Of a stretch of 52,351 nt of DNA, positions 7,851 to 27,658 are shown piece after piece. Both the position numbers and the translations under genes were made by a program. The notes under the pieces are model-generated. The model saw only the letters and a program-made list of their open reading frames with translations, was not told the origin of the DNA and ran no database searches. The stretch is from Desulfuromonadales bacterium. GTDB taxonomy: Bacteria; Desulfobacterota; Desulfuromonadia; Desulfuromonadales; BM103. The stretch is taken from the NCBI GenBank assembly GCA_030145195.1, contig JAQYVY010000025.1, positions 1 to 52,351 of the forward strand, read 5' to 3'. The first letter of the stretch is position 1; every line of letters starts with the position of its first letter.

Positions 7851-9338
7851 TCACTTTTCTGTTGAGCTATCAGCCATTTCAGCTAAGCATTTGTGCAACC
7901 TTACCATCGCCGCCGTATCCAGCTCACAATACTGTAACAAGTTTGCTCGCAACTCCCGCAACTTAACAGGGTCCTTTTCAGCACACATAATATGGTACGC
8001 CTCCATAGCCATACCGCCATCAGAAATTTCCAGGTCGGCGTAGGACAGTTCCGGCACAAACGCGGGTAATACTTGCTTGATCGAATTCGAGCCACGTTGC
8101 TGCCAGCGATAGGCATAGCGCTTACGAAACGGAACAATCAGATCCATGACATTATCGTGGATACGAGAGAGTCCGGCCGCATCTTCCGGAAAGGCCTCGA
8201 TCAGCTCTTTTAATCGGGTCTTTTCAAAAGACATGTTGTACGTCAACACACAGGCGTCTTCAGGAATCTCGCCCAGCATGCCTTTGATCAGGTCGGGGCG
8301 CGGGTCGACATTCGGCTCGGCAAGGTATTCATAATGCTCGACCGGGCCACCCTCCTCTCGCTGAATGTGCAAGGAATATTGAAAGGTGACCTGCTGATAA
8401 GGACGTGTTCCATCATAGAGCGGAACCGGTGACATAAAAGTTTCGAAGTCAAAATGGCAAAGTGGATACCATAGACTGTTGAGAAAACCTTTGAGCCCTT
8501 CAGGGTTGATGTTCTCCCCCTGCTTCAAGTGCATTTCGACCTGAAAACGCTGGCTCTTATTCAACTCATCCAAAGGCAGGTCTGCAAATGCAATCAGACC
8601 ATGCTGATAACAAGCGAACTTGTCGATCCCCCTGCCCCGCAGGGTGAAAACTGAATCCGCTGGCACATGCTTCCAGCAATGTCCGCAGAAGTCACAGCCA
8701 TAGGGATCAGAGCAATGTTTACCAATATCAATCTTCGGCTCATCCTCTCCGAGCATTGACCGCATCTCCACGAGGTTGTCTGAAACCTCATCCTGCATCG
8801 CGACAACATCATCGGTCAGGTCACGGATGGTAAACAGCTTGCGAACCTGGATAGCACCGTTGCGCACATAGCGGTTATTGATGTGCACAAGACAGGCCTT
8901 GTGCAGTTTGATGCCGACACCGGCCAGCACATAATATTGGAGAGCAATATCGTTGTAATTGACCTCTTTCACCTTGGTCGAACTCTTGACCTCGTAGAGC
9001 TCCCAGCCTGTTTTGCCCCTGTGGAGGATATCGACCTTTACGAATAGACCGTCGTATTCGAACGATGCCTCGTAAATAGTCTTGGCCCCTTGGGCTATTT
9101 CTCTCTGGGTCATCTCGACTTGTTCCGCGATTGACAGCCCATCAAACGGCACCTCAATGCCCCCTGGAAACAACTTCTGAGCCAGCACGCCAACATCGGT
9201 ACCGCTTGAGAAGATCGCCTGTTGCGCCGCACTGACCTCGTCACGCAGCTCTTTGTGGTGCTTATACAGGTACAGTGATTTGTGGCACTGCATGCCGCGA
9301 ATGTACTGTGATTTGCTGAGAAAAAGATTTCGTTTCAT
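7851..9338 (-). CDS. DUF2779 nuclease: Cas4-like PD-(D/E)XK plus DEDD exonuclease-like domain
   Basis: This 495-residue protein seems to hold two nuclease folds. In the N-terminal half, C18 in RGMQCHKSLY, D103 in VDILH, E116-V-K118 in YEVKSST, and a cluster C209, C215, C218 and C221 together reproduce the 4Fe-4S Cas4/AddB-like arrangement. In the C-terminal half, FDFET (D297, E299), the TYNMSFEKTRL segment and ELDTAA with D474 resemble the RNase H-like DEDD exonuclease motifs of DUF2779. No CRISPR array or cas gene is in the window, so this is not an adaptation gene here. AAGGAAT precedes the ATG. It lies 62 bases after the WYL gene on the same strand and is probably co-transcribed. A role in defence or DNA processing is inferred. 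Confidence 0.8.
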   Translation of the reverse strand: MKRNLFLSKSQYIRGMQCHKSLYLYKHHKELRDEVSAAQQAIFSSGTDVGVLAQKLFPGGIEVPFDGLSIAEQVEMTQREIAQGAKTIYEASFEYDGLFVKVDILHRGKTGWELYEVKSSTKVKEVNYNDIALQYYVLAGVGIKLHKACLVHINNRYVRNGAIQVRKLFTIRDLTDDVVAMQDEVSDNLVEMRSMLGEDEPKIDIGKHCSDPYGCDFCGHCWKHVPADSVFTLRGRGIDKFACYQHGLIAFADLPLDELNKSQRFQVEMHLKQGENINPEGLKGFLNSLWYPLCHFDFETFMSPVPLYDGTRPYQQVTFQYSLHIQREEGGPVEHYEYLAEPNVDPRPDLIKGMLGEIPEDACVLTYNMSFEKTRLKELIEAFPEDAAGLSRIHDNVMDLIVPFRKRYAYRWQQRGSNSIKQVLPAFVPELSYADLEISDGGMAMEAYHIMCAEKDPVKLRELRANLLQYCELDTAAMVRLHKCLAEMADSSTEK

Positions 9339-9400: not shown

Positions 9401-10408
9401 TCAATCTTCGTAGTAACCAGCCATCTTACGTGTCATCTCACAAAACTCCTTGCGTAACGACTTGGGAGAGACAACTTCGACATATTCACCAAAGCCTTGC
9501 AGCCACCAACGTAATTGCTGGGTGTCGAGAACCTCGGCCGCCACCAAAACATTCTCCCCCCGATCAGTGATAGTTTGATTTTCACTCAAGGGGCTCTCGT
9601 AAAGATGTGCCGCAGCGCCCTTATGAAACAAGGCCTTGAGCTTGATTGTCTTACTCCCTGGCAAGGCAAAACCAAGTGCGCCGCTCGCCAGATATTTATC
9701 CAGCGTGAAACCCTTCGGTTTCCGAACCGGTTCATCCATAATCTTCACCGACTGCAAACGATGCATGGCCAGAAGTTTCACATCAGCGTAATCCCGCAGC
9801 GTCGCCACCAAGTAGAGAACCGGTTCGGCGGCAACCACACCCAAAGGATTGACGACATACTCAACACACTCATCAGCTCCTTTCCTTCGATAAACCGCTT
9901 TGAAACGTCGGTCTTTAAATAAAGCCTCATAGACGCCATCGAGGATATCGGCATCGATATCCGGCGGCAGAAGGGGCTGGCTCCGAGGGACCACCCTGAC
10001 CTTGTCCGGCCAGCCACCATAGCTTTTATCACCAAGGTCGTCGAGGATCGCATTCGCCCGCCTCAGGTTTGGTGCCAGCGAGTCCAGACAGCTCTTTGGC
10101 AGCAACTTGGCCATGAATTCACCGACCATCTTGAGTGTCATGGCCCCGGTCCGATCCATCCCTGGGATATCAAACGCCATAGCGTGCTTATCCCAGCGCC
10201 AGGCGATTGGCTTGCCCATCACAGAGGTAATCGGGAACACCTCATACAATTCCTTAAGATCGCGCTGAACAGTCCGCAGGTCGACCTTAAAACCTTCGTC
10301 CTCAAGCTCGTCACGGAGCGCGGCTGCATCCTTGGGATGGCGTGCAGGCAGAAGCTGCAACATCTTCCACTGACGCAACAATGTGTAGAACTTCTTCTGC
10401 TTCTTCAT
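9401..10408 (-). CDS. WYL-domain transcriptional regulator
   Basis: This 335-residue protein has an N-terminal winged helix-turn-helix (KVDLRTVQRDLKELYEVFP), a middle linker, and a WYL-type domain around residues 150-240 (GVVAAEPVLYLVATLRD, then AMHRLQSVKI), followed by a WCX-like C-terminal region. WYL proteins commonly regulate phage-defence genes and may sense nucleic acid ligands. The start ATG is fixed by an in-frame TAA four codons upstream; GGAGG lies 12 bases before it, an unusually long spacing. The gene is divergent from the double-AAA+ gene. Copies of CGACA-N5-TGTCG in the shared region suggest it controls itself and that operon. Confidence 0.9.
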   Translation of the reverse strand: MKKQKKFYTLLRQWKMLQLLPARHPKDAAALRDELEDEGFKVDLRTVQRDLKELYEVFPITSVMGKPIAWRWDKHAMAFDIPGMDRTGAMTLKMVGEFMAKLLPKSCLDSLAPNLRRANAILDDLGDKSYGGWPDKVRVVPRSQPLLPPDIDADILDGVYEALFKDRRFKAVYRRKGADECVEYVVNPLGVVAAEPVLYLVATLRDYADVKLLAMHRLQSVKIMDEPVRKPKGFTLDKYLASGALGFALPGSKTIKLKALFHKGAAAHLYESPLSENQTITDRGENVLVAAEVLDTQQLRWWLQGFGEYVEVVSPKSLRKEFCEMTRKMAGYYED

Positions 10409-10432
10409 AGTTATAACTTACCTCCCAAGTAG

Positions 10433-10447
10433 CGACAGAATGTGTCG
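10433..10447. promoter_or_regulatory. Inverted repeat CGACA-N5-TGTCG, candidate WYL operator 1
   Basis: This is a perfect 5-5-5 inverted repeat located 25 bases before the WYL start codon. It lies just downstream of a possible WYL promoter read on the minus strand (TTGGCG, 18 bases, TATAAA, about 10452-10481), a position suited to repression. The same motif occurs at 10501 and 13779, and a single half-site CGACA lies at 10474. Confidence 0.6.
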
Positions 10448-10500
10448 TATTAAGGCTTTTATAACTTTTATTACGACAAATCGCCAACCGTAATCGCAAA

Positions 10501-10515
10501 CGACATATTTTGTCG
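10501..10515. promoter_or_regulatory. Inverted repeat CGACA-N5-TGTCG, candidate WYL operator 2
   Basis: A second perfect copy lies 55 bases before the double-AAA+ start codon. A different repeat, GTCCAA-N8-TTGGAC, follows at 10536-10555 just ahead of the ribosome-binding site and may be another site or an RNA hairpin. No clear plus-strand -10/-35 pair was recognised here. Confidence 0.6.
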
Positions 10516-10570
10516 CCAACTCGGGGTATCTAGTAGTCCAAGACAAATTTTGGACAAACAGGAGACATCC

Positions 10571-12652
10571 ATGATTGAAGCATACGAACAGTTGGCCATC
10601 ATCAATTACCTGCAAAACCTTCTGAACAAAAAGCTCTCGGCACACGCCTTCAAAGAAGTGTGTGACTTTTTGGAAACGGGTATGCCCTTACTCGGCATTG
10701 GAGGCAATATCGAAAAGACTCTCGACATGATTGATGATTACCAGAACGCGATCAGAGGGAATTCCGGGGCCCGGAAAATCTATCGGGCACTTCATGATGA
10801 TATCAGCAAACTACTGAAAAACCGTGTTCGAAAGATTGAGAAAGCGACGCCTGGGGGCATTGAGAAAAACATCAGGACAATCGTCAAAGAACTCGGACTC
10901 AATGAACTTGAGTCGGCACTCTTTTCCCTGATCCTCCGCTACCGGATCCATGACCAGCTCTATTCTCTACTTAATGACCTCACGCGAGAGCACATGGGAA
11001 TTCTTGATCTCTGTTCTACGTGCCTGGGTTACGACCGCAAAGACATTGCAGAGCACCTGCGGCAAAATAGTCGTCTGATCACTTCAGGGGCCATCGTCCA
11101 GCAGACCAGCAACGGCAAGGATATTGATGACCATTATGATGTTCCCGGAATCATTACAACGGCCATGCAAAGAACCCTTAACAACCTCGACGATGTCCGC
11201 AAGTACATAATCGGAGAATCATTGCCAGCGACTCTCGAATGGGACGACTTTGAGCATCTCGGTTCCACCCGGGACAAGCTGGCTACTTTTCTTGCCGAGG
11301 CCACCAAAAAGAAAATTCCGGGAGTCAACATCTTACTCTGGGGGCCACCTGGAACGGGCAAGACAGAGTTCTGCAAAACGCTGTCAGATCATCTTAACCT
11401 CAATCTCTACGCCTTGGGTGAGAGTGATGACTCTGGAGATGAGCCGGACAGGAAGGAACGAACCAGCGCGTTCCGGATCGCTCAGAATCTGCTCAGGAAC
11501 CAGAACAACAATCTGCTGTTGTTCGATGAAATGGACGATATGTTCGAGAACAAGGGGCTTGCCGTTTTGTTCGGAGCTAAGTTTTCCTCAGGTTCAAAGG
11601 TCTTCACCAACCGTCTGTTCGAGAACAACCCGGTTCCGACTATCTGGACCATCAATCAGCCTTCCTATCTGGACGAAAGCATTATCCGTCGTATGGCTTT
11701 AGCTATTGAGATGAAAATTCCAACACCAAAATCCCGCAAAAATGTCTGGAGACGCATCCTGGACAAAAGCGAGATTGAAGTCCCGGATGAGGCCCTGGGA
11801 AAATTGTCTGAAATTGAGATTTCTCCTGCCGTTGCCAGCAACGCCGTCAAGTTCGCTGGCCTGGTTGGCAGTTCACTGGAGGATTTCCAGTTTGCAACGA
11901 ATGGGATCATCAAGGCCACCCAAGGTCGTAATCCACTGCCGAGCAATAAATCCAACGAGCCTTACCTGCCGGAGTTGATTAACGCCGAGACCGACATAAG
12001 CCTGCTCGCCGACCGACTATGCGCCTCAGAAGCAAAAGACTTCTCACTCTGCCTCTACGGTCCTCCTGGAACTGGCAAATCAGCCTACGTCCGCTATCTG
12101 GCAGAACGCCTCGGCATGCCGGTTTTGTTCAAGCGGGCATCAGATTTAATGTCGAAATGGGTCGGGGAGAACGAGCAGAATATTGCTAAGGCCTTTGAAG
12201 AGGCGAAAGAGACGGAGAGCTTCCTTATCTTCGATGAAGCCGATTCCTTGCTGGGAGATCGTCGTTATGCTCATCACCCCTGGGAGGTATCGCAGGTCAA
12301 CGAGATGCTGACCTGGATGGAATGTCACCCCCTACCCTTTGCCTGCACAACCAACCTTAAAGAGCGCCTTGATCAAGCCTCAATGCGCCGGTTCACCTTC
12401 AAGTGCAATTTTGATTATCTGCAACCGGACCAGGTTGTCATCGCCTTCAAACATTTCTTTGCACTGGATCTCGATGCGCGGCAGGCCCAAAAGATGACCA
12501 ACCTCACCCCAGGAGACTTCGCAGTGGTCAGAAAAAAATTGCAGTTCCTGGATATTGGAAATGATATCGAGATACTGAGGGATCTTCTCTTTCAGGAAGT
12601 TGAGGCCAAGAACGAGATTCAGCAACGACAGCTTGGGTTCATGGCTGGATGA
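10571..12652 (+). CDS. Double AAA+ ATPase with helical N-terminal domain
   Basis: This 693-residue protein has an N-terminal mostly helical region of about 225 residues without a recognised domain. The first AAA+ domain has Walker A GPPGTGKT at 258-265 and Walker B LLLFDEMD at 315-322. The second has Walker A GPPGTGKS at 497-504, Walker B FLIFDEAD at 551-558 and an MRRF arginine segment at 605-608. The segment SKWVGENEQN after the second Walker A matches the pore-loop form of the Vps4/katanin group, suggesting a polymer-remodelling or threading motor (inference). A TTG start at 10550 is possible, but AGGAG at 10560-10564 points to ATG 10571. The stop overlaps the potential first start of the FtsZ-like gene, so the two form an operon. 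Confidence 0.85.
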   Translation: MIEAYEQLAIINYLQNLLNKKLSAHAFKEVCDFLETGMPLLGIGGNIEKTLDMIDDYQNAIRGNSGARKIYRALHDDISKLLKNRVRKIEKATPGGIEKNIRTIVKELGLNELESALFSLILRYRIHDQLYSLLNDLTREHMGILDLCSTCLGYDRKDIAEHLRQNSRLITSGAIVQQTSNGKDIDDHYDVPGIITTAMQRTLNNLDDVRKYIIGESLPATLEWDDFEHLGSTRDKLATFLAEATKKKIPGVNILLWGPPGTGKTEFCKTLSDHLNLNLYALGESDDSGDEPDRKERTSAFRIAQNLLRNQNNNLLLFDEMDDMFENKGLAVLFGAKFSSGSKVFTNRLFENNPVPTIWTINQPSYLDESIIRRMALAIEMKIPTPKSRKNVWRRILDKSEIEVPDEALGKLSEIEISPAVASNAVKFAGLVGSSLEDFQFATNGIIKATQGRNPLPSNKSNEPYLPELINAETDISLLADRLCASEAKDFSLCLYGPPGTGKSAYVRYLAERLGMPVLFKRASDLMSKWVGENEQNIAKAFEEAKETESFLIFDEADSLLGDRRYAHHPWEVSQVNEMLTWMECHPLPFACTTNLKERLDQASMRRFTFKCNFDYLQPDQVVIAFKHFFALDLDARQAQKMTNLTPGDFAVVRKKLQFLDIGNDIEILRDLLFQEVEAKNEIQQRQLGFMAG

Positions 12653-12693
12653 AAGCCCAACAGGAGACAAGTGAAGCTTCATGGAGTAAGAGT

Positions 12694-13755
12694 ATGATAA
12701 ATCGAAGAAGGTTTTTACAAGGAATTGCTGGAGGGCTGGTTCTTTCGCCGCTGCTATCATACGGGCTGCCGAAAGCACTTTCAGGCTGCGACAAGTATAT
12801 TCCAGGCTGGGCACCAAACTACCAGCATACCTATGGCCATGGACGTGTGGTTTTCGAAGATTTTTTTGCGAAGGATTATTTTTGGGGCAAAGCAGTCAGC
12901 CGAGAAGACACTATCGTTGAATACTCTCATAATCTTTTTCACCAGAACCTTTATGATCCCCCGATGGCGACATTAGAGGATGATGAAGATATTGATTTGT
13001 GCATCATCTCTGCCAGCCTAAAGGACATTTACGACCTCGAACGCTTACACCTTTTTGAGGAACTTTTTCACAAAGCATATTGTTCTTTTGGCTGCCTAAC
13101 ATTACCCCCTAATGCAGATACAATTGTAACGATTCGTGATAACAAGGATTTCAACCAATTATTAGAAAGGCTCCCTTGCCCTGTCGTACTGATTGACGCT
13201 CACGCTATTGAGAGAACAGTTCCGAAACTGCCAACAATCAAACCTCACAGCAACAACACAGACAGAATTCTGCAAAGCACCATTATCGGCATATTGGCCC
13301 CTTTGGTGGTACATAGCTACATTGGAATAGATAGCGCCGATTTCCTAAGATTCATGGAAGCTAGCAAGTTGGTCGGTATGGGAATTGGGTTCATGAATCA
13401 TTCAGCGATCGACCTCAACCTAGCCGCCGAGGAGGCAGTCAACACAATATACGATCAAATAGCTCCCGGCATGGATATCGCTCAAAAGTTCGATTCATGC
13501 TGGGTCAACGTATGCGGTAACGACAAACTCTTAACCATGGACATGTATCAAGTTGTTGCAAACAAAATACACAGCGACATCCCAGAGCATTCAAATGTAT
13601 TTATAGGCCTTACCATAGATAACGGCTTAGAAGATGACATCATGATAACTTGCTTTGGTGGGCTTGCTTTGGAGTCGTGTGGTGAGAGTCAAGAGGTGCC
13701 TTTTATCAAGGAATCACACCATCAATACTCAATCCCCTTTACTGTGAGGTCTTGA
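12694..13755 (+). CDS. FtsZ-fold protein with twin-arginine lipoprotein-type signal, GTP signature lost
   Basis: This 353-residue protein has a striking mixture of features. Residues 4-10 are RRRFLQG, a twin-arginine motif. A hydrophobic stretch and LSGC at 29-32, a possible lipobox, follow. The rest resembles FtsZ: residues 100-108 match the strand before the T4 loop; ILQSTIIGI, GIDSAD (211-216) and DFLRFM match helix H7 and the T7 region; and 227-333 align almost gap-free with the FtsZ C-terminal domain. Examples are MGIG, TMD-Y--VAN-IH and the NVFIGL segment. The tubulin signature GGGTGTG is replaced by SLKDIYD, so GTP binding is unlikely. A start at 12649 (ATGA coupling) is possible, but GGAG at 12683-12686 favours ATG 12694. 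A less likely reading is that the N-terminus is a degenerate FtsZ T1 region. Function is unknown. Confidence 0.75.
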   Translation: MINRRRFLQGIAGGLVLSPLLSYGLPKALSGCDKYIPGWAPNYQHTYGHGRVVFEDFFAKDYFWGKAVSREDTIVEYSHNLFHQNLYDPPMATLEDDEDIDLCIISASLKDIYDLERLHLFEELFHKAYCSFGCLTLPPNADTIVTIRDNKDFNQLLERLPCPVVLIDAHAIERTVPKLPTIKPHSNNTDRILQSTIIGILAPLVVHSYIGIDSADFLRFMEASKLVGMGIGFMNHSAIDLNLAAEEAVNTIYDQIAPGMDIAQKFDSCWVNVCGNDKLLTMDMYQVVANKIHSDIPEHSNVFIGLTIDNGLEDDIMITCFGGLALESCGESQEVPFIKESHHQYSIPFTVRS

Positions 13756-13778
13756 TTTATTCGTTCCAGATTGCTTTG

Positions 13779-13793
13779 CGACAGGTTGTGTCG
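13779..13793. promoter_or_regulatory. Inverted repeat CGACA-N5-TGTCG, third copy
   Basis: This copy lies 24 bases after the FtsZ-like stop, in a convergent gap. It matches the two copies before the double-AAA+ gene at all ten defined positions and in spacing. It may be a distant operator, a remnant of a shared module edge, or a site for an unrecognised transcript. Confidence 0.5.
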
Positions 13794-13870
13794 GTTAAAG
13801 AACGCTGCGAACTTAGATGGTGAGAGTGAAGCGTCAGAAGGCCAAAGTGTTCAAATAGATAAGAGAGTAA

Positions 13871-14500
13871 TCACAAACTGACTTGAGGCACATACCCTGC
13901 TCGAATGGCGTTGACAGTCGATGCCGGAGTCAGCACATCAACCAGAAATTCTCCTGGGCGCTGTACAACCTGGCCATATCCTCCCGGCGACCAGCTTCGA
14001 AGTTCACCACGCCACACAAGGTAAGCACTCTCTGGATCGCTCGGCAAAGAAACGAATGTTCCTTCTGGCAAGCTACCAAGTTCCACCGGGAAGGTGACCT
14101 TCTCTCGTGTGCGCGTCACCCTTTCCTGTTGAAGAACCTTGTCTATCTCACCGATTTTCACATTGTCGGCGAAACCATATTCCGGGTTCCCTTTCAGCCA
14201 AGCTTTCTTGAAACACTTGAAATCCTCACGCCGGCACTCGGCGCAAGGGCGATGGCCAGCGGCCAGCGCAGTTGCTTCGTCCAAAAAGAAAAGTTCCGTG
14301 TAACATCCTGGCGCCATGAGTGGACGCCGGCGCTCTTTGAACTCAAGCAGACAGATGATCCAACGACTGCTTGTCCAACGTCGGTCAGTCAGCTCACCCT
14401 GGTCATTGTGCAGTGCACCACCACGGTTGCCCATGAATGCGCCGCGAGCATCGGTTACTATCAGTTCGCCGAATGGATTGACCCGGTTTTGTCTTGGCAT
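13871..14500 (-). CDS. Hypothetical protein with Ada-like cysteine motif
   Basis: This 209-residue protein is of unknown function. Its middle contains CYTELFFLDEATALAAG followed by HRPCAECRRE. This resembles the second half of the Ada metal-binding domain (…AAGFRPCKRCRPD), but with one upstream cysteine instead of two. The N-terminus (PRQNRVNPFGE, then FMGNRGGALHND) and RWIICLLEFK are as seen in a conserved hypothetical family I recall without a function. The start follows the DUF3553 gene by five bases, so it is the last gene of the minus-strand defence array. A role with modified DNA is possible but only inferred from neighbours. Confidence 0.6.
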   Translation of the reverse strand: MPRQNRVNPFGELIVTDARGAFMGNRGGALHNDQGELTDRRWTSSRWIICLLEFKERRRPLMAPGCYTELFFLDEATALAAGHRPCAECRREDFKCFKKAWLKGNPEYGFADNVKIGEIDKVLQQERVTRTREKVTFPVELGSLPEGTFVSLPSDPESAYLVWRGELRSWSPGGYGQVVQRPGEFLVDVLTPASTVNAIRAGYVPQVSL

Positions 14501-14505
14501 GGTGG

Positions 14506-15771
14506 CTACACCCAGCGGATTTCTTCCAGGGCGGCAACTAATTCAGGGCGCATAACAAACTCGAAATGGCCGTCAATGGTTGCATCAGACGCTTCGTTAC
14601 CATCAGAGAGTGTTCGCCACCACATTCTTTCACCATTGGCACGTTTTGGCGGGAGATAGCTTAAATGATGGGACAACAACTTCCCTATAGTTCCGTAATG
14701 CAGGTTCGCGGCATTGTAATTGGCATACCCGGCCGCATCAGCCAATAGTGTTGCTGTAATGATATGCCCTTCTGAATCATATTGAGCTTTGAGCATTTTA
14801 CGATACTGGGTGTTGTCAAAACGGCCGTCTGCATCCATGCTGCGCAACGCCTGCTTATATTTGGTTTTGGTTGGTTTGAAAGCATCACCCTCAACCATAT
14901 CGTATTTCCCCGGCGTGATGCACCACATGAACGATTGCACGTCAATCATGTCGCGCGGAGCCATTTCCATCTTGACCAGCTCTTCGTAGAGATACTTTGA
15001 GAAATCAAGTAAGCAGGAGTAAGTCAGCCAGTTTAACTCTGACTTGTAGTTGAGCTCAGCCTTGGTCAGCTCTGCAGCGTGCTTGGTGATTTCCGGCTTA
15101 AGGAACATCTGTTCCTCTGGAAAGGCCAAGAATGGGAAGTAGGTCATTATCGGCCACTTGGCCGCGTCAACCTTGTTCAGGCATTCGGCAAAGGCTTCAA
15201 AGCGGTCACGGTATTCACCGACACCATAAAGTAGCTCAAACAGAGTCTGAGCGAACATCAGCGCGTTTTCTGGAGTCTTAAGCCCATCCTTAAGGCTCAT
15301 CTTCTCATTTGGAAAGATGAGATTGGTCTTGTTGGCGACTTGCAAGGCACGTCGGGCAATTTCCTCAGACTCGCAATCATCAAGGAGTTTTTTGAATTCC
15401 TGCTCGTTCAGAAGTTCGAGGAACAGTTCACGGGCATTGACCTTATAGTTGCGCTCAATGTCGAGATACGCTTGATCCTCAAAACCATCTGAGAAGATTT
15501 CAAGAAAGTCCAGCCTTGCTTCAGGCAAACCGATATGTTTTGTCCCCTTGGTTACTCGCTCTGTGAATGTCGAGTTGTCTAGGATGGGATGGGACGCTTC
15601 TGCGCCCGTCACCTTTTCTAATGTTACGTACTTCAGGCCGAGCAGCTTTTCTCCGGCATTGATGAAAAAGACTTTCACCTTGCCGTCTGCCGAAAGTTCA
15701 AGAACTTTGCCAACGCCCCAGTCCTCCATCTTTGGATGAAGGACCTTATCACCAACCGCTAATGCACACAT
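14506..15771 (-). CDS. DUF3553-domain protein, defence-island associated
   Basis: This 421-residue protein begins with an SH3-like DUF3553 segment (VGDKVLHPKMEDWGVGKVLEL, about residues 6-45), a module otherwise seen attached to UvrD-type helicases. The remainder is largely helical. Near the C-terminus is GYANYNAANLHYGTIGKLL, a pattern I associate loosely with some restriction-linked proteins. No catalytic motif is clear. GGAGG is seven bases before ATG 15771; the TTG two codons earlier is too close to it. The start sits just beyond the stop of the GmrSD-like gene, so translation is coupled and the two products may act together. Confidence 0.65.
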   Translation of the reverse strand: MCALAVGDKVLHPKMEDWGVGKVLELSADGKVKVFFINAGEKLLGLKYVTLEKVTGAEASHPILDNSTFTERVTKGTKHIGLPEARLDFLEIFSDGFEDQAYLDIERNYKVNARELFLELLNEQEFKKLLDDCESEEIARRALQVANKTNLIFPNEKMSLKDGLKTPENALMFAQTLFELLYGVGEYRDRFEAFAECLNKVDAAKWPIMTYFPFLAFPEEQMFLKPEITKHAAELTKAELNYKSELNWLTYSCLLDFSKYLYEELVKMEMAPRDMIDVQSFMWCITPGKYDMVEGDAFKPTKTKYKQALRSMDADGRFDNTQYRKMLKAQYDSEGHIITATLLADAAGYANYNAANLHYGTIGKLLSHHLSYLPPKRANGERMWWRTLSDGNEASDATIDGHFEFVMRPELVAALEEIRWV

Positions 15772-15773
15772 TT

Positions 15774-17726
15774 TCAACCCTCCACACTTGCAGTATCAGT
15801 TTCACTCGCATACTCATTTTCACTTCCATCTAAAGTCAACGAAGGCCAGATTTCCAGCAACTGGCTCAAGAGATAGTTCATGCGCTTTTCAATCGCCGAC
15901 TCGCACCAGTCATCAGCATCTTCTCCGTGGAAATATTGTGTTAAATTAAGCTTGCTGAACTTCAGAAGTTCTGGCCTTTTTCTCACCCAAGAAGAGTTTG
16001 ACAGCGCTGGGTTGAGGCTCCCCGTAATTAAAGTTAAGTTCCCCAAATTGTTGACTAAACGATTTCGTTTCTGGATAGCGTCTTGCTCAGCAATCGGATC
16101 AGGCTCGCCAGTTTCTGAATTAACTTTATCAGCATCCGCGAGCGGCCAGTGTGTTTGCCATGTCTGCGGCATTACATGCTCGATCGTCAGGCCAGCAGGC
16201 AGCGGCTGCGCCTCACTCTTTGAAGAGTGAGCATATGCGTCAAGAGCCTCAAGAATCGCTCGAACCTTATACTGAGCCAAGCGACCATAAAGAGACATAT
16301 CTTTGATGGCGGACTCAAAACTCGCATCATCTGGATAGCGCGTACTATCAGCAACACTCTTCCCCATATACTCTGCGACCACATCTGCCGTCAAAACACC
16401 CCCTTTATCAACAGAGCGAATAATATCGACAAAATAGCGATTGTAGTTTTTGCCAGTAAGACCACAGACCATACGCCGAACCAGATAAGACTCGATGTGC
16501 ACCAAAACCTTGTCGAACTCAGGCTTGTTATTTGGCATCAGATGGGCATACGCATAAAGCAAGAACGGAAAAATCGTTGTCGTGTCAACGGCGTCCATAC
16601 GCCGCAGAAATATTGCTAATCTGCTGTGGTTTTGAGGATTGTAAAATACTTTAAAAACGTCTGCATATCTCGACAACTGGGCGATGTGTTCTGCTGCCGT
16701 CTTAGGTACCGTGAGCAATGAGCCTTCTATTGAGATAGATTCGCGAATAAAGTCCTTAAACGCATTAAACAGGTGGGACGACTTGACTTCCTCGCGTGCC
16801 ATCATTGCCAGATAATGATTAATGAAAATATCGACCCGTGGCCGGGTAATTCGCCCTTGTTTAACCCAAGCCCGCCACCATTCCGTTTCAAAGCGTTTCC
16901 AATGGTCTTCATACAGTTTCTCAACTTTTTCGCCATCGGCTTCAGCTTGTCGGAAAAGATGATTCTTGATCAGGTCAGCAGGAAGAAGATCTTCGCCCCT
17001 GGCATTGAGTGTTTCGAAAATGACTTGTGTTTCATCATCTTTATCCAAATCGATCACGACAACCTGAAGACAATCTTTGACAACGCACCAAAGTGACTCG
17101 AAACGATCTTCAAAAGATTTTCCCTGCAACACCTCTGCGTCTTCATCATCGTCCAGTTCTCCATTCAGCCAAGTTGTGAGTTGGCCGTGGAAGAACTTGT
17201 ATCCATCAATAATATTGTTGGCCCCATCTTTCACTTCAGGCTTCTGTTTGATGATGTTTGCAACAGCATCAGGCGATCCAGCTTCATGAACAACGCGGAA
17301 TGCCGCCCGATTGCTATTTGTCGGCCAGACCTTAAAAACCTCATCGTCGTGATCAATTTTACTGCGACGATTTGCGACGAGGTCGCTAAAGCGTTCTTGA
17401 TACTTCTCAGTACTGTGCTCTTTTGCCAAGTCACGCGCAGCCATCAGAAACAATTGAAGAGTGGTAAACCGCTGTTGGCCGTCGATGATCTGGCGACTCT
17501 CGATGGAGCCGGTCGATTTTGCTAACTGCTCCAGAACAACTGCACCGAGGAAGTGAGGATGGGCATTAGTCCCCCGCAGATGTTTATCAAGCAATGATTG
17601 GATATCTTCCCAGAGGGGGTCCCAATTAGCATCCTTTGTCCAAACATAGGGGCGCTGGAACAAAGGCACCTGATAGGTTATTGTCTGGTCGAAGATTCGT
17701 TCTAGTTTTCTGGTATTCGCTTCCAA
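15774..17726 (-). CDS. GmrSD-like fused DUF262-DUF1524 protein, type IV restriction
   Basis: This 650-residue protein joins both parts of GmrSD-type modification-dependent restriction. The N-terminal DUF262 half has VPLFQRPYVW and the nucleotide-linked motif DGQQRFTTLQ (82-86 for DGQQR). The C-terminal DUF1524 half has the HNH-like sequence IEHVMPQTW, followed by NNLGNLTLITGSLN and NSSW. Such proteins cleave DNA with modified, often glucosylated, cytosines. The start is TTG 17726, chosen because AGGAGG lies five bases upstream and no nearby ATG fits. The gene begins 59 bases after the GIY-YIG gene and overlaps or abuts the DUF3553 gene downstream. Confidence 0.88.
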   Translation of the reverse strand: MEANTRKLERIFDQTITYQVPLFQRPYVWTKDANWDPLWEDIQSLLDKHLRGTNAHPHFLGAVVLEQLAKSTGSIESRQIIDGQQRFTTLQLFLMAARDLAKEHSTEKYQERFSDLVANRRSKIDHDDEVFKVWPTNSNRAAFRVVHEAGSPDAVANIIKQKPEVKDGANNIIDGYKFFHGQLTTWLNGELDDDEDAEVLQGKSFEDRFESLWCVVKDCLQVVVIDLDKDDETQVIFETLNARGEDLLPADLIKNHLFRQAEADGEKVEKLYEDHWKRFETEWWRAWVKQGRITRPRVDIFINHYLAMMAREEVKSSHLFNAFKDFIRESISIEGSLLTVPKTAAEHIAQLSRYADVFKVFYNPQNHSRLAIFLRRMDAVDTTTIFPFLLYAYAHLMPNNKPEFDKVLVHIESYLVRRMVCGLTGKNYNRYFVDIIRSVDKGGVLTADVVAEYMGKSVADSTRYPDDASFESAIKDMSLYGRLAQYKVRAILEALDAYAHSSKSEAQPLPAGLTIEHVMPQTWQTHWPLADADKVNSETGEPDPIAEQDAIQKRNRLVNNLGNLTLITGSLNPALSNSSWVRKRPELLKFSKLNLTQYFHGEDADDWCESAIEKRMNYLLSQLLEIWPSLTLDGSENEYASETDTASVEG

Positions 17727-17785
17727 AGTTGCCTCCTATATAAACTAAACAAATCAAATCATCATTTGCTACTTAAAACCTTTAT

Positions 17786-18421
17786 CTACTCTTCAAAATC
17801 AAGAGGGGCAAAATCTGAAAAGTTAGTAGGAGCTAGTTCCCATAAAGGTTTTTTGCCTGCAATCTTGAGTGGAGTGTTCCACCAAGAGCCGCCCCCTTTG
17901 TAACTCTTGTTAGCCCCAGAAATGCTATTCAAAACCGGAAAACGCTTTTTTTCATCTAAGCCTCCATAATTTTCACTGAAGTATTCAAGCATCAAGTATT
18001 CAACATGTTTATAATAACTTTTTGTTCCTTTTAATGACGGATATGAAAAATGAAAATCGAAATTTGCGCCTGAAAGACTCAGCATAAAATCAAAGAGGCT
18101 GTTATTAAAATGATTTTCAATCCTTTTTAAGACATTTCCTATTCCAACGTAGATTACCTGAGATCTTTTTTTCCTGTATTGAATTGATAGTGGGTTTGAT
18201 AATGAAATTACATACACACCATACTTTAAAGGCGCTAATTCAAAACCAGCGTCATCGCATGCATCCTCAATTTGCCAAAGTGCTTCCTTGATCGATTTTC
18301 GTCGAAGTTCTTTTTGAACTTCAGATGAATATTCATCATAAATGGCTAAATCAAATCCAGCATTTCTTGTATAAATAGCTAAGCTTTGGTTTTTTATTGA
18401 ATACCAGTGGTTCCTTTTCAT
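17786..18421 (-). CDS. GIY-YIG nuclease-like protein
   Basis: This 211-residue protein contains a probable GIY-YIG nuclease core from about residue 67. YGVYVISL and VIYVGIG correspond to the name-giving strands, LKRI supplies the arginine, HVEYLMLEYF the metal-binding glutamate, and PVLNSISG the terminal Asn. It is more AT-rich than the neighbouring hsdS and GmrSD genes, suggesting separate acquisition. AAAGGA precedes the ATG, which lies 17 bases after the hsdS stop. A role as an accessory restriction nuclease is inferred. Confidence 0.75.
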   Translation of the reverse strand: MKRNHWYSIKNQSLAIYTRNAGFDLAIYDEYSSEVQKELRRKSIKEALWQIEDACDDAGFELAPLKYGVYVISLSNPLSIQYRKKRSQVIYVGIGNVLKRIENHFNNSLFDFMLSLSGANFDFHFSYPSLKGTKSYYKHVEYLMLEYFSENYGGLDEKKRFPVLNSISGANKSYKGGGSWWNTPLKIAGKKPLWELAPTNFSDFAPLDFEE

Positions 18422-18438
18422 GTTGTGTCCTTTTTTTA

Positions 18439-20163
18439 TTACGCCACCAAAAGCTGCCGCACGGTAGCTTCCATCAGTTTTTCGCTGTGCCGCTGTGCCT
18501 GGTTGAGTTTAGCTTCGAGGTCGTCGCACAGGGTCATGAGTTGGTCGACTCTGGCGACAATGCGTTTTTGTTCTTCGAGCGGAGGTACAGAAATAAGTAG
18601 GTTGCTAATCTCTGTTGAGTTTATATTTTTCACCCCTGATGTTGTCCTGATAGGGCCCTCTATCTGGATTCTTACATATGAACTTTCAAGCATGAGGTGA
18701 ACATATTTTGTTGAGATTAACTGGGGGAATGACCGAACTCGAACAAGATATCCAGCGTAAGAATAACCATCTAGGCTATTGCCAATAACCGCCGACCGGC
18801 CAACCAAATTGACGCTACCATTTGATCGAATAAGCAAGAGGTCACCTTCTTTGAGAGACAGGTCTTGCTTTTCCTTGTCTGTCAAATTGGTGAATTTCAA
18901 ATCTTCAACATCCACCACGCCCTTTTTTAGGTTGGGAATCCTAAGAACAGGATCACCAATAATTTTGTAATCGCAGCGTTTTGATGTGCCATAACGCAGG
19001 TCTGCTGCAATCTCACCAAATCTAATCCATTGCCAAGGTTCAGGTAATTTCCATGGCAAAAGATTTGGCTCAATAGGCGCAAGGTCCTTGCCCTTTTTTA
19101 CCATTTTCTCTCTTAAGAGCCTCTCCTTCTCAGCCTTAATCCTCTCCAGCAAAACAGAAGCAGGCTCGTCGCTGGGGTCTTGGGGGACGAGCTTGCCCTG
19201 AACGGCGAGTTGGAGGATGGCGGCACGAAGTTTGGCGATGGTTTCGGGGTGGTCGTAGAGCAGGTCGAAGTTGGTACTGATGCGCTGCCAGCGGTCGGCG
19301 AATTCGTCGGGCTCGCGGGAGGTGAGCAGTGCGTCGAGGGAGGCTTTGTTGAGGCGCACCCGCCCTTGCTGCTTCTTTTGCTGGCGGGCTTCGAGTTCGT
19401 TGCACAGGGACATGAGTTGGTCGACCTTGGCGACGATGCGTTTTTGCTCTACTTCAGGTGCAATCGGCACCATGGCATTGTTCATCTTTGTTAGAGTAAC
19501 TCTTGTGATCGCCACCCCAGACATGTCTTCGCGCATGAGATCATAGAAAAATGGTGACCGTAAAACATGAAGCAGATAACCGTTATAGAATCCTTGCGGC
19601 AACTTCAGTAAGGCAACACTTGAAAGCATACTAAACGGCTCATCAAGATCATTTATCGTTACTATGCCTGTCGTTGCTCCATCTTTGATGTAAAGTAGGT
19701 CACCAATTTCAGGGTTACATCTTGCAAAGATTTCCTCATGCACCTCTTTTGTCACATAAGAGATATTTGATAGTTGCACGCCAAAGTTTTTAATATTTTT
19801 GGCAGTCACATATTTAAAATCACCGTTTTCGGTATTTGTCGGAGAGTGGTGAGTTCCATCAGTTAACTTTAAAAGAGCATCTCCCAGACGTACCCATTGC
19901 CACGATTTGGGCAATTCAAAGCGCCTGTCACTCTCTGTAATAAGCGATGTCTTCTTTGACTTCTTAACAACCCCAGACTTAACCAACCTCTCCTTCTCGA
20001 CCTCAATCCTCTCCAGCAGTACCGAAGCAGGCTCATCACTCGGGACTTGCGGCACCAACTTCCCCTGCACCGCAAGCTGAAGAATCAACTCCCGCAGTTT
20101 CTGCACTCCATTAGGCGCATCGGCCAGATGTCCGAAATTGGCAAAAAACATTTCAACCGTCAT
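18439..20163 (-). CDS. hsdS: Type I restriction-modification specificity subunit
   Basis: This 574-residue protein should choose the DNA target of the HsdR-HsdM-HsdS complex. It has two target recognition domains, about residues 80-240 and 355-520. Each is preceded by a repeated conserved region (LAVQGKLVPQ-PSDEPASVLLERI) and followed by a helical spacer (EQKRIVAKVDQLMSLC and EQKRIVARVDQLMTLC). The two-half design implies a bipartite recognition sequence. The ATG overlaps the stop of the RhuM-like frame by four bases. That frame carries a strong terminator-like hairpin, so hsdS expression may depend on upstream translation. Confidence 0.95.
   Translation of the reverse strand: MTVEMFFANFGHLADAPNGVQKLRELILQLAVQGKLVPQVPSDEPASVLLERIEVEKERLVKSGVVKKSKKTSLITESDRRFELPKSWQWVRLGDALLKLTDGTHHSPTNTENGDFKYVTAKNIKNFGVQLSNISYVTKEVHEEIFARCNPEIGDLLYIKDGATTGIVTINDLDEPFSMLSSVALLKLPQGFYNGYLLHVLRSPFFYDLMREDMSGVAITRVTLTKMNNAMVPIAPEVEQKRIVAKVDQLMSLCNELEARQQKKQQGRVRLNKASLDALLTSREPDEFADRWQRISTNFDLLYDHPETIAKLRAAILQLAVQGKLVPQDPSDEPASVLLERIKAEKERLLREKMVKKGKDLAPIEPNLLPWKLPEPWQWIRFGEIAADLRYGTSKRCDYKIIGDPVLRIPNLKKGVVDVEDLKFTNLTDKEKQDLSLKEGDLLLIRSNGSVNLVGRSAVIGNSLDGYSYAGYLVRVRSFPQLISTKYVHLMLESSYVRIQIEGPIRTTSGVKNINSTEISNLLISVPPLEEQKRIVARVDQLMTLCDDLEAKLNQAQRHSEKLMEATVRQLLVA
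19120..20100. repeat. Internal duplicated segments of hsdS
   Basis: About 100 bp at 19125-19235 and at 19990-20095 are similar at DNA level. Both encode the LAVQGKLVPQ-PSDEPASVLLERI region. Such repeats allow recognition domains to be exchanged by recombination. Confidence 0.7.
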
Positions 20164-20179
20164 AAACCAAAAACCTTTA

Positions 20180-20282
20180 TTTCACGCAAAGCCGCAAAGT
20201 CGCCAAGAGGGTCAAAACCTTTCCTTAACGGTTTCCTTTGCGCCTTTGCGGCTTGAGTGAGCAACGCGAACGGGCGTGAAAA
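20180..20282. repeat. Palindromic dispersed-type repeat between rhuM remnant and hsdS
   Basis: The segment starts with TTTCACGC and ends with GCGTGAAA. Inside it, AAGCCGCAAAG (20189-20199) pairs with CTTTGCGGCTT (20244-20254). Its GCAAAG-rich wording resembles short non-coding repeats common in environmental genomes. It seems to have replaced the end of the RhuM gene. Confidence 0.55.
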
Positions 20283-20310
20283 AACCATCAATCGTTTCTC
20301 CGATTGATGG
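20279..20310 (-). terminator. Terminator-like hairpin inside the RhuM frame
   Basis: On the minus strand a perfect 10-bp stem CCATCAATCG with a six-base loop is followed by at least six T. It lies between hsdM and hsdS in the direction of transcription. It is either the old end of the rhuM transcript or an attenuator for hsdS. Confidence 0.75.
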
Positions 20311-20643
20311 GGTTGACGACCACCTTGATGATTGCGCAGAACCCTGGTCGCCCATTGTCGGAACTGGGTGCCGCGTTGCGATTTAACCCGATAACCTACG
20401 GAGATGATCACATCAAGATTGTAAAAAACAACCGGTTTGTCAGAATTTGCAATATGCATTTTCTGCATATTGCTTTTCTCCTCTAATTCCCCCTCCTTAA
20501 AAACATTCCGAATGTGGCGAGACAGAACGGACTGGTCGCGTTGAAATAAATCGACCAGTTGAGCCTGGTTCAACCAAACGGTGTCCTGCTCAAGCTGAAC
20601 CTCCAACTGAGTCGTACCGTCTTCGGCCTGAAAAATGACAACA

Positions 20644-22095
20644 TCACTCATCGCCCCCTCCCAGTGCATCCATCAATTCATATTTCAATTTATCGCGCGT
20701 CTCAGACACGCTGGTCAGCAAAGTTTTGTATTCGGCCAGCAACTCCTCGGGATCACCGAGCGCATCGGCAACGGTGTTGGGATTCTTGATATCGAGGTTG
20801 TAACCATTGGCCTTAATCTGCTCAACAGAAACCTTCCACGCTTGCTCGCTCTCCTGCCGGTTCTTCCACCAGGCTTTCTCAGGAGCGAACTCATCAATGC
20901 GCATCGGTTTGGTCTTGTTGTAGCTCTTTGCCCCTTCAGGATAAGGATGCTCATAATACCAAACGTCCTTGGTCGGTTCCCCCTTGGTGAAGAACAGCAG
21001 GTTGGTCTTGATGCCGGTGTAGGGGTTGAAGACACCATTAGGCAGACGCACCACGGTGTGCAGGTTGCACTCTTCGAGCAACTTCTCCTTGATGCGGGTC
21101 TTGACGCCCTCACCGAACAATGTGCCATCAGGTAAGACAATAGCGGCGCGGCCGCCGTCCTTGAGTAAGTGCTTGATCAGCACCAGAAACAAGTCGGCAG
21201 TCTCACGGGTGCGGAAGGTCGCCGGGAAGTTGGACTCAATGCCGTCTTCCTCGGTGCCGCCGAAGGGTGGATTGGTCACCACCACGTCGACCCGATCCTT
21301 GGGTCCGTAATCACGCATGGGACGCGACAGGGTGTTATCGTGACGAATGTTGGACGGCACCTCAATGCCGTGCAGCAGCATGTTAGTGGTGCAGAGCAGA
21401 TGAGGTAGCGCCTTCTTCTCAACGCCAAAGACTGACTTCTGCAAAAGCTGCTCGTCCTCGGCAGTCTTCACATCATTGCCGCGCACATGCTCGATGGAGC
21501 AGGAGAGGAAACCGCCGGTACCGCAAGCCGGGTCGAGGATCTTCTCGCCAAGCCTAGGATTGACCATATCGACCATGAACTGGGTAACGGCACGCGGGGT
21601 GTAGAACTCCCCGGCGTTACCTGCGCTCTGCAAATCTTTGAGGATTTGCTCGTAAATGTCGCCGAAGGTGTGGCGGTCGTCGGAACGGTTAAAATCGATT
21701 GCATTGATCTTGTTGACCACCTGGCGAATCAAGGTGCCGTTCTTCATGTAGTTGTAGGCATCCTCAAAGACCGAGCGCACCACGATGCCGCGCCCGTTAG
21801 TCCCGGCATTCAACTCCAGTTCCTTGAGGTTCTTGAACAGATCGTTATTGATGAAGTCAAGTAACTCATCACCGGTAATCCCCTCGGCATCAGCCGCCCA
21901 ATTGCGCCAGCGCAGCCGCTCGGGGATCGGCGAGGTGTAGTTGTCTTGAAGCAGTTCGAGTTCCTGCTCCTGGTCATCGAATATTTTCAGAAAGAACGTC
22001 CAGACAAGTTGGCCGATACGCTGCGCGTCGCCATCGACGCCGGCGTCCTTGCGCATGATGTCCTGGATGGATTTGATTGTGGTTGATACTGACAT
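20644..22095 (-). CDS. hsdM: Type I restriction-modification DNA methyltransferase subunit
   Basis: This 483-residue protein should methylate adenine N6 in the target set by HsdS. It has the SAM-binding motif DPACGTGGFL near residue 175 and the catalytic NPPFGG near residue 265, with the N-terminal helical HsdM domain before them. The gene starts two bases after the stop of the PD-(D/E)XK gene and overlaps the RhuM-like gene. Length is typical of this HsdM subgroup. Confidence 0.96.
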   Translation of the reverse strand: MSVSTTIKSIQDIMRKDAGVDGDAQRIGQLVWTFFLKIFDDQEQELELLQDNYTSPIPERLRWRNWAADAEGITGDELLDFINNDLFKNLKELELNAGTNGRGIVVRSVFEDAYNYMKNGTLIRQVVNKINAIDFNRSDDRHTFGDIYEQILKDLQSAGNAGEFYTPRAVTQFMVDMVNPRLGEKILDPACGTGGFLSCSIEHVRGNDVKTAEDEQLLQKSVFGVEKKALPHLLCTTNMLLHGIEVPSNIRHDNTLSRPMRDYGPKDRVDVVVTNPPFGGTEEDGIESNFPATFRTRETADLFLVLIKHLLKDGGRAAIVLPDGTLFGEGVKTRIKEKLLEECNLHTVVRLPNGVFNPYTGIKTNLLFFTKGEPTKDVWYYEHPYPEGAKSYNKTKPMRIDEFAPEKAWWKNRQESEQAWKVSVEQIKANGYNLDIKNPNTVADALGDPEELLAEYKTLLTSVSETRDKLKYELMDALGGGDE

Positions 22096-22097
22096 AC

Positions 22098-23564
22098 TTA
22101 TACAGCCTCTTCCTTCTTCGAAATACTATCTAATGGCATCAAACTCATTTCTTTAATTACTACTCCTGCCATGGCGACAAGCTTGTTTGCAAAATCATTG
22201 CGATTAGTTTCATTCATTAAACGGTAAAAGCTCTCATTATTCTTTCTAAAATCTACATCTACGTCTTTATTAAGATATAAAATCGGCCTTCCCAGCCCTT
22301 TAAGTTTCCCCAACTTCTTTTTATCTGGAACATCATATTCTTTATGAACATGGCCATAAAACTTTTCTAAAACTTCTTTTGTATGGATGCACACATCATT
22401 TTCTCCGTATAGACCCACGTAGAAACGTCCATTAAAACGGATTTCTAGCCAAACATTCTGTTTTTCTCCAGATGGGCTAACATAGAAATATGACTTAGAT
22501 GACAAACCAAAATATTTTTTATTGGTACTTAGCTTCTCTTTCTCGAAAAAATTTTTCGTAAGGCCCTTTAGCTTTTCTGTTTCTGCTTTGGCTTTGAAGT
22601 TTGGCTCCAAAGACCCAACAAAAGCAGCACTATTCTCAGCTCTCGCTAAGGACTGTCGCTGCATATCATTCCATGACGTTTTAATATCATCCCAAATACT
22701 TTGAACGAGCTTTATCCTTGCTAATTTTGAAGCCTTTGCCAACTGGATCGCTGCCTCAAATTTTTCAGGAGAATTTAGTTCTTTCATTAACTCACTGGGC
22801 ATACTTCCTCCATTTCCCGTTAACAAGTTGATCGTTTCGATATACTGAGAGACAACTTCACGAGCATAAGGCAAACTACTCAGCTTTTCACGACACTGGG
22901 CCATCCATTCACATATTTCCTCGGAGTAAGAGAGGAGCCTAACCGGCTCCTCAGGTGTAGTCGCGCTATCAGTCGCTGACTCTTCACCCTCGCCTTCATC
23001 TCCATCATTATCTAGGCCCCAACCAATCAGTTCGCCAGGTATTCCTATGAGGCTATCCTTTGACGGCTCGTCTCCATTAAGGGTTAGATAAAAGAGCAGC
23101 CAACGCTGCCCCCCATTCTTTTCCCCAAAATTACTTTCGAGAAATTCGTAGTATCTCCCAAGTTGCCGCTTTTGCAGTCCCGCATAAATCTTGTTTTCTA
23201 TCGTAATACCAAAACGCTCACCATCACTATTTTCACCAACAAGCAGAATGTCGATCCTGCCGTCAACATCCTTACCTTCCTCAACTTGAACCCGCCAGGT
23301 GTCAAAACTTTTCACTTCCTCTTCAATACCCACAGACTTGAAAAACAACTTCAGGAAAGCATCGCCTTGGCCGTGCGTACCTTTAGGGCTAAGGAAATCT
23401 GCGATAAAAGCAGAATGACCCTTCACCTCGCTCGTATGCCGATCAAGTAACTTGAAGATATTAAAATCTTGTCCAGACTGTTGTCGATATTTGCGGTAGT
23501 TTGAAACTTCTTGCGTGGAGAATGTAAGGAGCTTTTTAGCAACCTGATTTATTTGCAGTGACAT
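22098..23564 (-). CDS. PD-(D/E)XK nuclease-superfamily protein within type I locus
   Basis: This 488-residue protein has KGHSAFIADFLSPKGTHGQG and then the nuclease-like core GRIDILLV (D), FGITIENKIYAG (E-x-K) and QLGRYYEFL. This is the PD-(D/E)XK_4 arrangement found in many defence-associated proteins. The C-terminal half has no recognised domain; it contains a lysine-rich stretch and an aromatic region. The gene is AT-rich compared with hsdM and hsdR and sits between them, implying insertion of an accessory nuclease. AAGGAA precedes the ATG. Confidence 0.8.
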   Translation of the reverse strand: MSLQINQVAKKLLTFSTQEVSNYRKYRQQSGQDFNIFKLLDRHTSEVKGHSAFIADFLSPKGTHGQGDAFLKLFFKSVGIEEEVKSFDTWRVQVEEGKDVDGRIDILLVGENSDGERFGITIENKIYAGLQKRQLGRYYEFLESNFGEKNGGQRWLLFYLTLNGDEPSKDSLIGIPGELIGWGLDNDGDEGEGEESATDSATTPEEPVRLLSYSEEICEWMAQCREKLSSLPYAREVVSQYIETINLLTGNGGSMPSELMKELNSPEKFEAAIQLAKASKLARIKLVQSIWDDIKTSWNDMQRQSLARAENSAAFVGSLEPNFKAKAETEKLKGLTKNFFEKEKLSTNKKYFGLSSKSYFYVSPSGEKQNVWLEIRFNGRFYVGLYGENDVCIHTKEVLEKFYGHVHKEYDVPDKKKLGKLKGLGRPILYLNKDVDVDFRKNNESFYRLMNETNRNDFANKLVAMAGVVIKEMSLMPLDSISKKEEAV

Positions 23565-23594
23565 CTAATATTCCTTACCTGAAGCGCCCATAGA

Positions 23595-25940: not shown

Positions 25941-25956
25941 GGCTATCCCGGAAAAC

Positions 25957-25997
25957 AAAAAAACCGCATGGCCAGACAACGCAGGCTATAGCGGTTT
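25957..25997 (-). terminator. Attenuator-like hairpin in the hsdR leader
   Basis: On the minus strand AAACCGC pairs with GCGGTTT across an inner GCC/GGC stem, and seven T follow. It ends 17 bases before the hsdR start and lies downstream of the candidate promoter. It could limit hsdR transcription. Confidence 0.65.
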
Positions 25998-27546: not shown

Positions 27547-27658
27547 AATGACTCCCTCCGTCATTGTTGTGTCGAAACTTCTCCATAGTCCCGACGAGGT
27601 AAACCTAAAAACTGCGAATTTTTATCTTCTCCACCCGACGTTACCGGATGGGTTTTAT

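Follow-up and report, generated by a model that had tools for sequence, protein, structure and literature searches.

A putative FtsZ derivative without GTP motifs in a Desulfuromonadales bacterium, a candidate dead-end mimic of FtsZ

The chloroplast protein ARC3 is derived from FtsZ and has turned into an inhibitor of FtsZ assembly; it keeps the N-terminal part of FtsZ and adds MORN repeats. Other side branches are described in the accessible text of PMC2875224: FtsZl1 and FtsZl2, in which the loop GGGTG(S/T)G is kept and the C-terminal part does not resemble that of FtsZ, further FtsZ paralogues, especially archaeal ones, some of which are without important motifs, and, from Sulfolobus, an FtsZ-like protein that has transmembrane helices at its N-terminus. 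In FtsZ itself the contact regions of the polymerising face are H10, S9, H8 and T7, the last of which acts on the nucleotide bound to the adjoining subunit (PMC8936486, accessible text). H10 and the C-terminal peptide are where MinC takes hold of FtsZ, and the H10 face also serves SulA, MciZ and MipZ (PMC11938149, accessible text).

Here we describe a gene whose product appears to join the second half of FtsZ to a signal-like N-terminus. It lies in what we call the window, that is, the whole stretch of DNA analysed (52,351 nucleotides, contig JAQYVY010000025.1), among the following features.

9401 to 10408, minus strand: WYL/WCX-domain regulator, divergent, a frequent neighbour of the AAA gene
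10550 to 12652, plus strand: ATPase of 700 aa with two AAA domains; the ATG at 12649 overlaps its stop, and its second domain is like IetA
12683 to 12686, plus strand: GGAG, Shine-Dalgarno-like, 7 bases 5' of the ATG at 12694
12694 to 13755, plus strand: putative FtsZ-derived protein without a GTP site, 353 aa; the alternative start at 12649 gives 368 aa
12703 to 12723, plus strand: RRRFLQG, twin-arginine-like motif, residues 4-10, then an uncharged run (residues 7-26)
12778 to 12789, plus strand: LSGC, lipobox-like, residues 29-32
13015 to 13035, plus strand: SLKDIYD at about the place of FtsZ loop T4 (GGGTGTG), residues 108-114; the exact register varies by alignment
13321 to 13341, plus strand: T7 loop IGIDSAD, residues 210-216; the counterparts of E. 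coli D209 and D212 (both aspartates) are kept and N207 is lost
13534 to 13611, plus strand: helix H10-strand S10, selectively retained, residues 281-306; 16 of 26 as in the family FtsZ consensus
13723 to 13749, plus strand: degenerate conserved C-terminal peptide QYSIPFTVR, residues 344-352
26395 to 27564, minus strand: the genome's own FtsZ, for comparison

The translation agrees with the three motifs that a preliminary description of this DNA had placed in the protein (RRRFLQG, LSGC and SLKDIYD at the residues given above). The ATG at 12649 shares bases with the stop codon of the AAA gene upstream, while the ATG at 12694 lies 41 bases past that stop. By codon position the G+C content is 0.51, 0.35 and 0.46, so a coding pattern is kept. 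With identity in the C-terminal domain down to about 30%, a frame of 353 codons without interruption points to selection. Codon use, on the other hand, is atypical: measured against ten genes of the division cluster it scores -0.153, the second lowest value among 23 window genes.

The preliminary description had aligned the C-terminal half with FtsZ, and profile searches bear this out. TIGR00065 matches residues 164-320 at an E value of about 2e-9 (37 bits, under its cut-off of 295 bits), and a profile-profile comparison (hhalign against 21 FtsZs) reaches 2e-12 over residues 204-336 of the 368-aa form. PF12327 matches at 8e-4 (20 bits, cut-off 27), and the genome's own FtsZ is 30% identical over 136 residues (E value 3.8e-11). 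Residues 1-169 of the 368-aa form have no match to FtsZ by sequence, and recognition at this level begins only past about residue 164. A frameshifted first half of FtsZ is rejected by a search of the six frames of 10001-14600 with an FtsZ profile, in which the one significant match lay in the same frame and covered the second half.

For the FtsZ fold, also claimed at the outset, the outcome is divided. AlphaFold2 given the sequence alone yields an unusable model (pLDDT 32). With 35 FtsZ rows from the own and related genomes supplied, residues 98-327 are modelled at block pLDDT 54-86, apart from residues 182-185, which fall below 50; the values for residues 1-97 are 24-46. When this primed model is compared with the PDB it finds FtsZ among the matches listed (best Z 17.0 over 235 residues, 4.2 Å), and most of the structural alignments to FtsZ start at residues 33-99. 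Residues 64-97 make a short helix and a strand only, at low confidence, and residues 1-63 are without secondary structure, though the alignment had offered residues 8-14 as S1-T1 of FtsZ. As the FtsZ rows prime the model, it says that the sequence is compatible with an FtsZ fold and no more. From about residue 98 onwards the primed model matches FtsZ.

The absence of a GTP signature is upheld: aligned to the own and the E. coli FtsZ, none of the GTP loops T1-T6 is intact. At T1 the protein shows AGGAPN and a gap, some alignments keeping two glycines; T3 retains one proline in some alignments; the register of T4-T6 varies by alignment, and in one alignment a glutamate stands opposite E. coli E138. 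A search at E 1e-5 matched 56 of 58 genomes (own included), in a single place per genome apart from the own one, and all 30 matches examined (again with the own FtsZ) are ordinary FtsZs with GGGTGTG. We regard the loss of the GTP motifs as well supported. At T7, the catalytic aspartates are kept: D213 and D216 correspond to E. coli D209 and D212, while N207 is not kept. It should be noted, however, that only 17 of the 41 nearly invariant columns of the C-terminal domain outside H10-S10 are kept in this protein, so the two aspartates are unremarkable by themselves.

Descent of the gene from FtsZ is well supported, and descent from the FtsZ of its own bacterial family likely. Over residues 164-322 its identity averages 30% with 20 FtsZs of the family, 27% with 10 from the order's other families and 22% with 28 from the rest of the phylum. 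Where the family and phylum consensus differ (53 columns), it agrees with the family at 18, with the phylum at 4 and with neither at 31; where the family and the rest of the order differ, the corresponding counts are 11, 3 and 11. In a maximum-likelihood tree its place is among the FtsZs of the family, at the end of a saturated branch (length 10), and AU tests do not reject a placement outside the family (p 0.076 and 0.079), so the family placement is a leaning and not a proof. Different codons are used for 25 of the 40 residues common to this protein and the own FtsZ in residues 164-322, which indicates that the copy is old and that its synonymous sites look saturated. Recent gene conversion by the nearby ftsZ is unlikely, as only 4 of the 13 H10-S10 residues common to both have the same codon. 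Nucleotide identity to the own ftsZ is nevertheless above that of the rest of the domain in H10-S10 (47 of 81 versus 101 of 267), so that an old conversion is possible.

Agreement with the family consensus extends to 56 of 219 columns, and the best of 194 windows of 26 columns is residues 281-306, with 16 of 26 (62%), a count reached by 22 of 10,000 permutations. Outside this window the C-terminal domain, H8 included, is as in the family at 26%. Ordinary conservation of FtsZ cannot account for such retention, because the window is a poorly conserved one: in the 28 phylum FtsZs its mean is 36% versus 62% for the rest and it ranks 157 or lower of 194 in every one of them, and in the 10 FtsZs of the order it is always below the rest. 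The four most variable columns of the window (283, 286, 290 and 304) all carry the family residue, against 2 of 21 comparably variable columns elsewhere in the protein. That the gene kept a variable part of FtsZ in the family's own version is, on this evidence from alignments, well supported. Judging by their spacing, positions 283, 286, 290 and 293 would share one side of the helix. Changes at L270, R271, E276, N280 and I294 of E. coli FtsZ give MinC resistance (PMC11938149, accessible text). These sites correspond here to L280, T281, Q286, N290 and I304, four of which equal the family consensus; at two of these four the own FtsZ carries E and F.

The protein ends in QYSIPFTVRS, which is similar to the tail of FtsZ (EYDIPTFLRK). 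A looser test gave a weaker result: of 2,000 shuffles, 12 were as high by mean score and 39 by best score, as were 28 of 1,272 C-termini from background genes. A position-specific test, made after that one, gives a score of 21.3, which lies below the 31.9-60.7 of 58 FtsZs, above all 627 background genes, and is reached by 10 of 20,000 shuffles.

Descent from FtsZ, loss of the GTP motifs, selective retention and the gene arrangement are thus supported by computation. The leading reading, to which we give a probability of about 0.4, is a dead-end FtsZ mimic that faces the cytoplasm and acts on FtsZ or its partners. An old duplicate of the family's own FtsZ would have lost its nucleotide-binding (top) face, and with that face lost it should neither bind GTP nor receive the next subunit. 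It would have kept the T7 aspartates, the H10-S10 part of the polymerising face in the family version and a degenerate C-terminal peptide, and may lay this polymerising face on the GTP face of FtsZ, leaving the filament capped or poisoned. Alternatively, it might sequester a protein that takes hold of FtsZ at H10 and the tail, for example the division inhibitor of an invader. The mimic and the AAA ATPase are probably produced together, the gene of the latter ending shortly before the start of the mimic's gene or inside it. We infer that it acts in the cytoplasm and binds FtsZ or an FtsZ-directed protein, and that it may be linked to defence. A decoy for MinC in particular is rejected, as MinC_C was not found in the search of this genome. 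Several FtsZ antagonists bind the H10 face, so a GTPase-less derivative that copies part of it together with the tail would lend itself naturally to a dominant-negative or decoy role.

A mimic leaves the first 97 residues unexplained, and here the N-terminus speaks for another location. The twin-arginine-like motif, the uncharged run of moderate hydropathy and the lipobox-like LSGC, behind an ATG with a good ribosome site, could make residues 1-31 a Tat signal and Cys32 a lipidated residue. TIGR01409 (13.5 bits, E value 0.07, cut-off 16.7) and PF10518 (13.2 bits, 0.09, cut-off 22.7) are the only families among the matches listed for the first 50 residues, both under their cut-offs, with E values taken from whole libraries of 18,950 and 24,736 models. 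By simple rules devised for this analysis, the protein passes Tat and lipobox together, as do only 3 of 20,000 shuffled versions of residues 1-40; the Tat rule alone is passed by 177 of 20,000 shuffles and 0 of 58 FtsZ N-termini. The loci contain 1,895 mechanically called frames of 150 aa or more; 14 of these pass the Tat rule, three of them copies of the FtsZ-like gene, and these three are the only ones with a lipobox as well. Likeness to FtsZ and likeness to a signal are hence both above chance. TatC is encoded in the genome (232 bits). The protein has nine cysteines versus 0 in the own FtsZ and at most 3 in 58 FtsZs, although such richness in cysteine is common: a content of 2.5% is reached by 51 of 546 background genes. 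On this evidence, and with residues 1-63 modelled without secondary structure in spite of the S1-T1 alignment offered, export fits the N-terminus better than a mimic does. A Tat-exported lipoprotein whose nucleotide-free FtsZ-derived domain serves for binding or as a scaffold on the outer side of the inner membrane nevertheless seems to us doubtful, and a version of it that still presents the H10 face and tail outside the cytoplasm slightly more so. H10 and the tail are cytoplasmic in FtsZ, and their selective retention argues against export, which leaves the keeping of family-specific H10-S10 and tail unexplained; no homologue was found to show conservation of RR and LSGC. If exported, this would be, to our knowledge, the first tubulin-superfamily protein outside the cytoplasm, where we know of no other.

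It is also conceivable, if rather unlikely, that the signal is accidental, residues 1-26 being a remnant of S1, T1 and H1 of FtsZ in a cytoplasmic relic that is maybe functionless. MAFFT alignments do place RRRFLQGIAGG at about S1-T1, and the S1-T1-H1-S2 profile score is weak but not nil; it is, however, reached by 36 of 400 shuffles of residues 1-32 and by 66 of 400 of residues 1-97, and is not significant. Atypical codon use and the lack of a credible relative in the genomes searched fit decay, while the coding pattern by codon position and the open frame, despite synonymous sites that look saturated, do not, and a decaying gene is unlikely to keep variable H10 positions. Membership of FtsZl1 or FtsZl2, side families of the kind raised as a possibility in the preliminary description, is very improbable and we drop it: by the accessible text of PMC2875224 those proteins have GGGTG(S/T)G and a C-terminal part unlike FtsZ's, and here GGGTG(S/T)G is absent and the C-terminal domain is that of FtsZ. 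We thus rank the cytoplasm-facing mimic ahead of export, and export ahead of a relic. The conflict between the mimic and export is one of location, H10 and the tail pointing to the cytoplasm and the N-terminus to export. Against the mimic stand this Tat-lipoprotein-like N-terminus, which would place the protein outside the cytoplasm, a C-terminal domain kept at so low a level outside H10-S10, the failure to find a second genome with the gene and that to find MinC in its own.

Searches for the N-terminal half at an E value of 0.01 gave matches in 0 of 135 other genomes of the order, 0 of 276 genomes of the class (a set that overlaps those of the order and the phylum sample) and 3 of 394 other genomes of the phylum sample. 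All three are weak (0.002-0.009), one has an in-frame stop, and their number is about the chance expectation at that threshold. A pattern search of genome contigs matched 25 stretches, none of them a relative of the gene. Origin from a virus or plasmid is rejected, with no relative in a pattern search of IMG/VR or in phage and plasmid records (tblastn, E 0.1). Among the genomes searched this is one gene in one genome. Literature titles and abstract openings, a source from which subscription papers are largely missing, contain no GTP-less or exported bacterial FtsZ; in full text 'periplasmic FtsZ' yields nothing, and 'FtsZ-like' with 'twin-arginine' matches, in the text accessible, one general review of archaeal cell biology.

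Apart from this gene, phylum genomes G169, G206, G425 (family f57), G275, G352 and G406 have two to four matches each to the FtsZ model. In G206 and G425 the best match is far under the usual score (E values 3e-6 and 2e-25). We take such multiple or low matches to be divergent or split FtsZ genes.

The neighbouring AAA ATPase has Walker A motifs at 265 and 504 and is matched over most of its length by phrog_10401. We compared its loci in the best 80 of 363 cases, with flanks of at most 6 kb, many of them ended by contig ends. One neighbour cluster, whose scanned member is a WYL/WCX protein, occurs within 5 kb of the AAA gene in 50 of these 80 loci. A conserved AAA-FtsZ pair is rejected: phmmer run without filters found no FtsZ-like gene beside the AAA gene in the best 80 of 363, the weak matches to the protein in four of them having E values of 4.5 or worse. 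In the nearest locus (L036; AAA 71% and WYL 67% identical) an unrelated 204-aa frame at 8085-8699, with no Pfam or PHROG match, overlaps the AAA stop just as the long form of the FtsZ-like gene does. The position after the AAA stop looks like a slot for changing partners. The two-AAA ATPase and the WYL regulator form a widespread pair with varied other neighbours, such as an ADP-ribosylglycohydrolase in another locus (L056), and may be an undescribed defence or stress module. In the window the WYL gene is adjoined by a DUF2779 protein (7851-9338) whose matches, Cas4-like and RNase H-like, are weak.

On its right-hand side the FtsZ-like gene is followed by a PDC-S40 candidate (PADLOC), a DUF3553 gene, a GmrSD-type (type IV) enzyme and the type I restriction genes HsdS/HsdM/HsdR, and further right a PDDEXK_4 nuclease (PADLOC PDC-S26), then ftsZ and ftsA. 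The genes before ftsZ make up a restriction island (13871-25979) that adjoins ftsZ and the division cluster. If the mimic reading is true, the position of the gene beside the AAA ATPase and this island would make division control a possible arm of defence.

It remains to set the locus against known systems. PADLOC's IetAS comes to mind from the second AAA domain of the neighbouring ATPase, which resembles IetA. IetS is a protease, and by Pfam the genes directly on either side of the AAA gene match none; unlike IetAS, moreover, the gene here has two AAA domains and a WYL regulator. With FtsZ (TIGR00065, PF00091 and PF12327) the protein shares the second half, the T7 aspartates and H10-S10, and it may also share a degenerate tail and, from about residue 98, the fold of the primed model; unlike FtsZ it is without an intact GTP loop or a recognisable first half and has a signal-like N-terminus. 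FtsZl1 and FtsZl2 are, like it, side proteins of the FtsZ superfamily, with the reverse choice of parts according to the accessible text on them. MinC, SulA, MciZ and MipZ bind, as far as the accessible text describes, the H10 face of FtsZ, which this protein appears to copy, and for MinC the same FtsZ tail is concerned. ARC3 keeps the N-terminal part of FtsZ; the protein described here keeps the C-terminal part.
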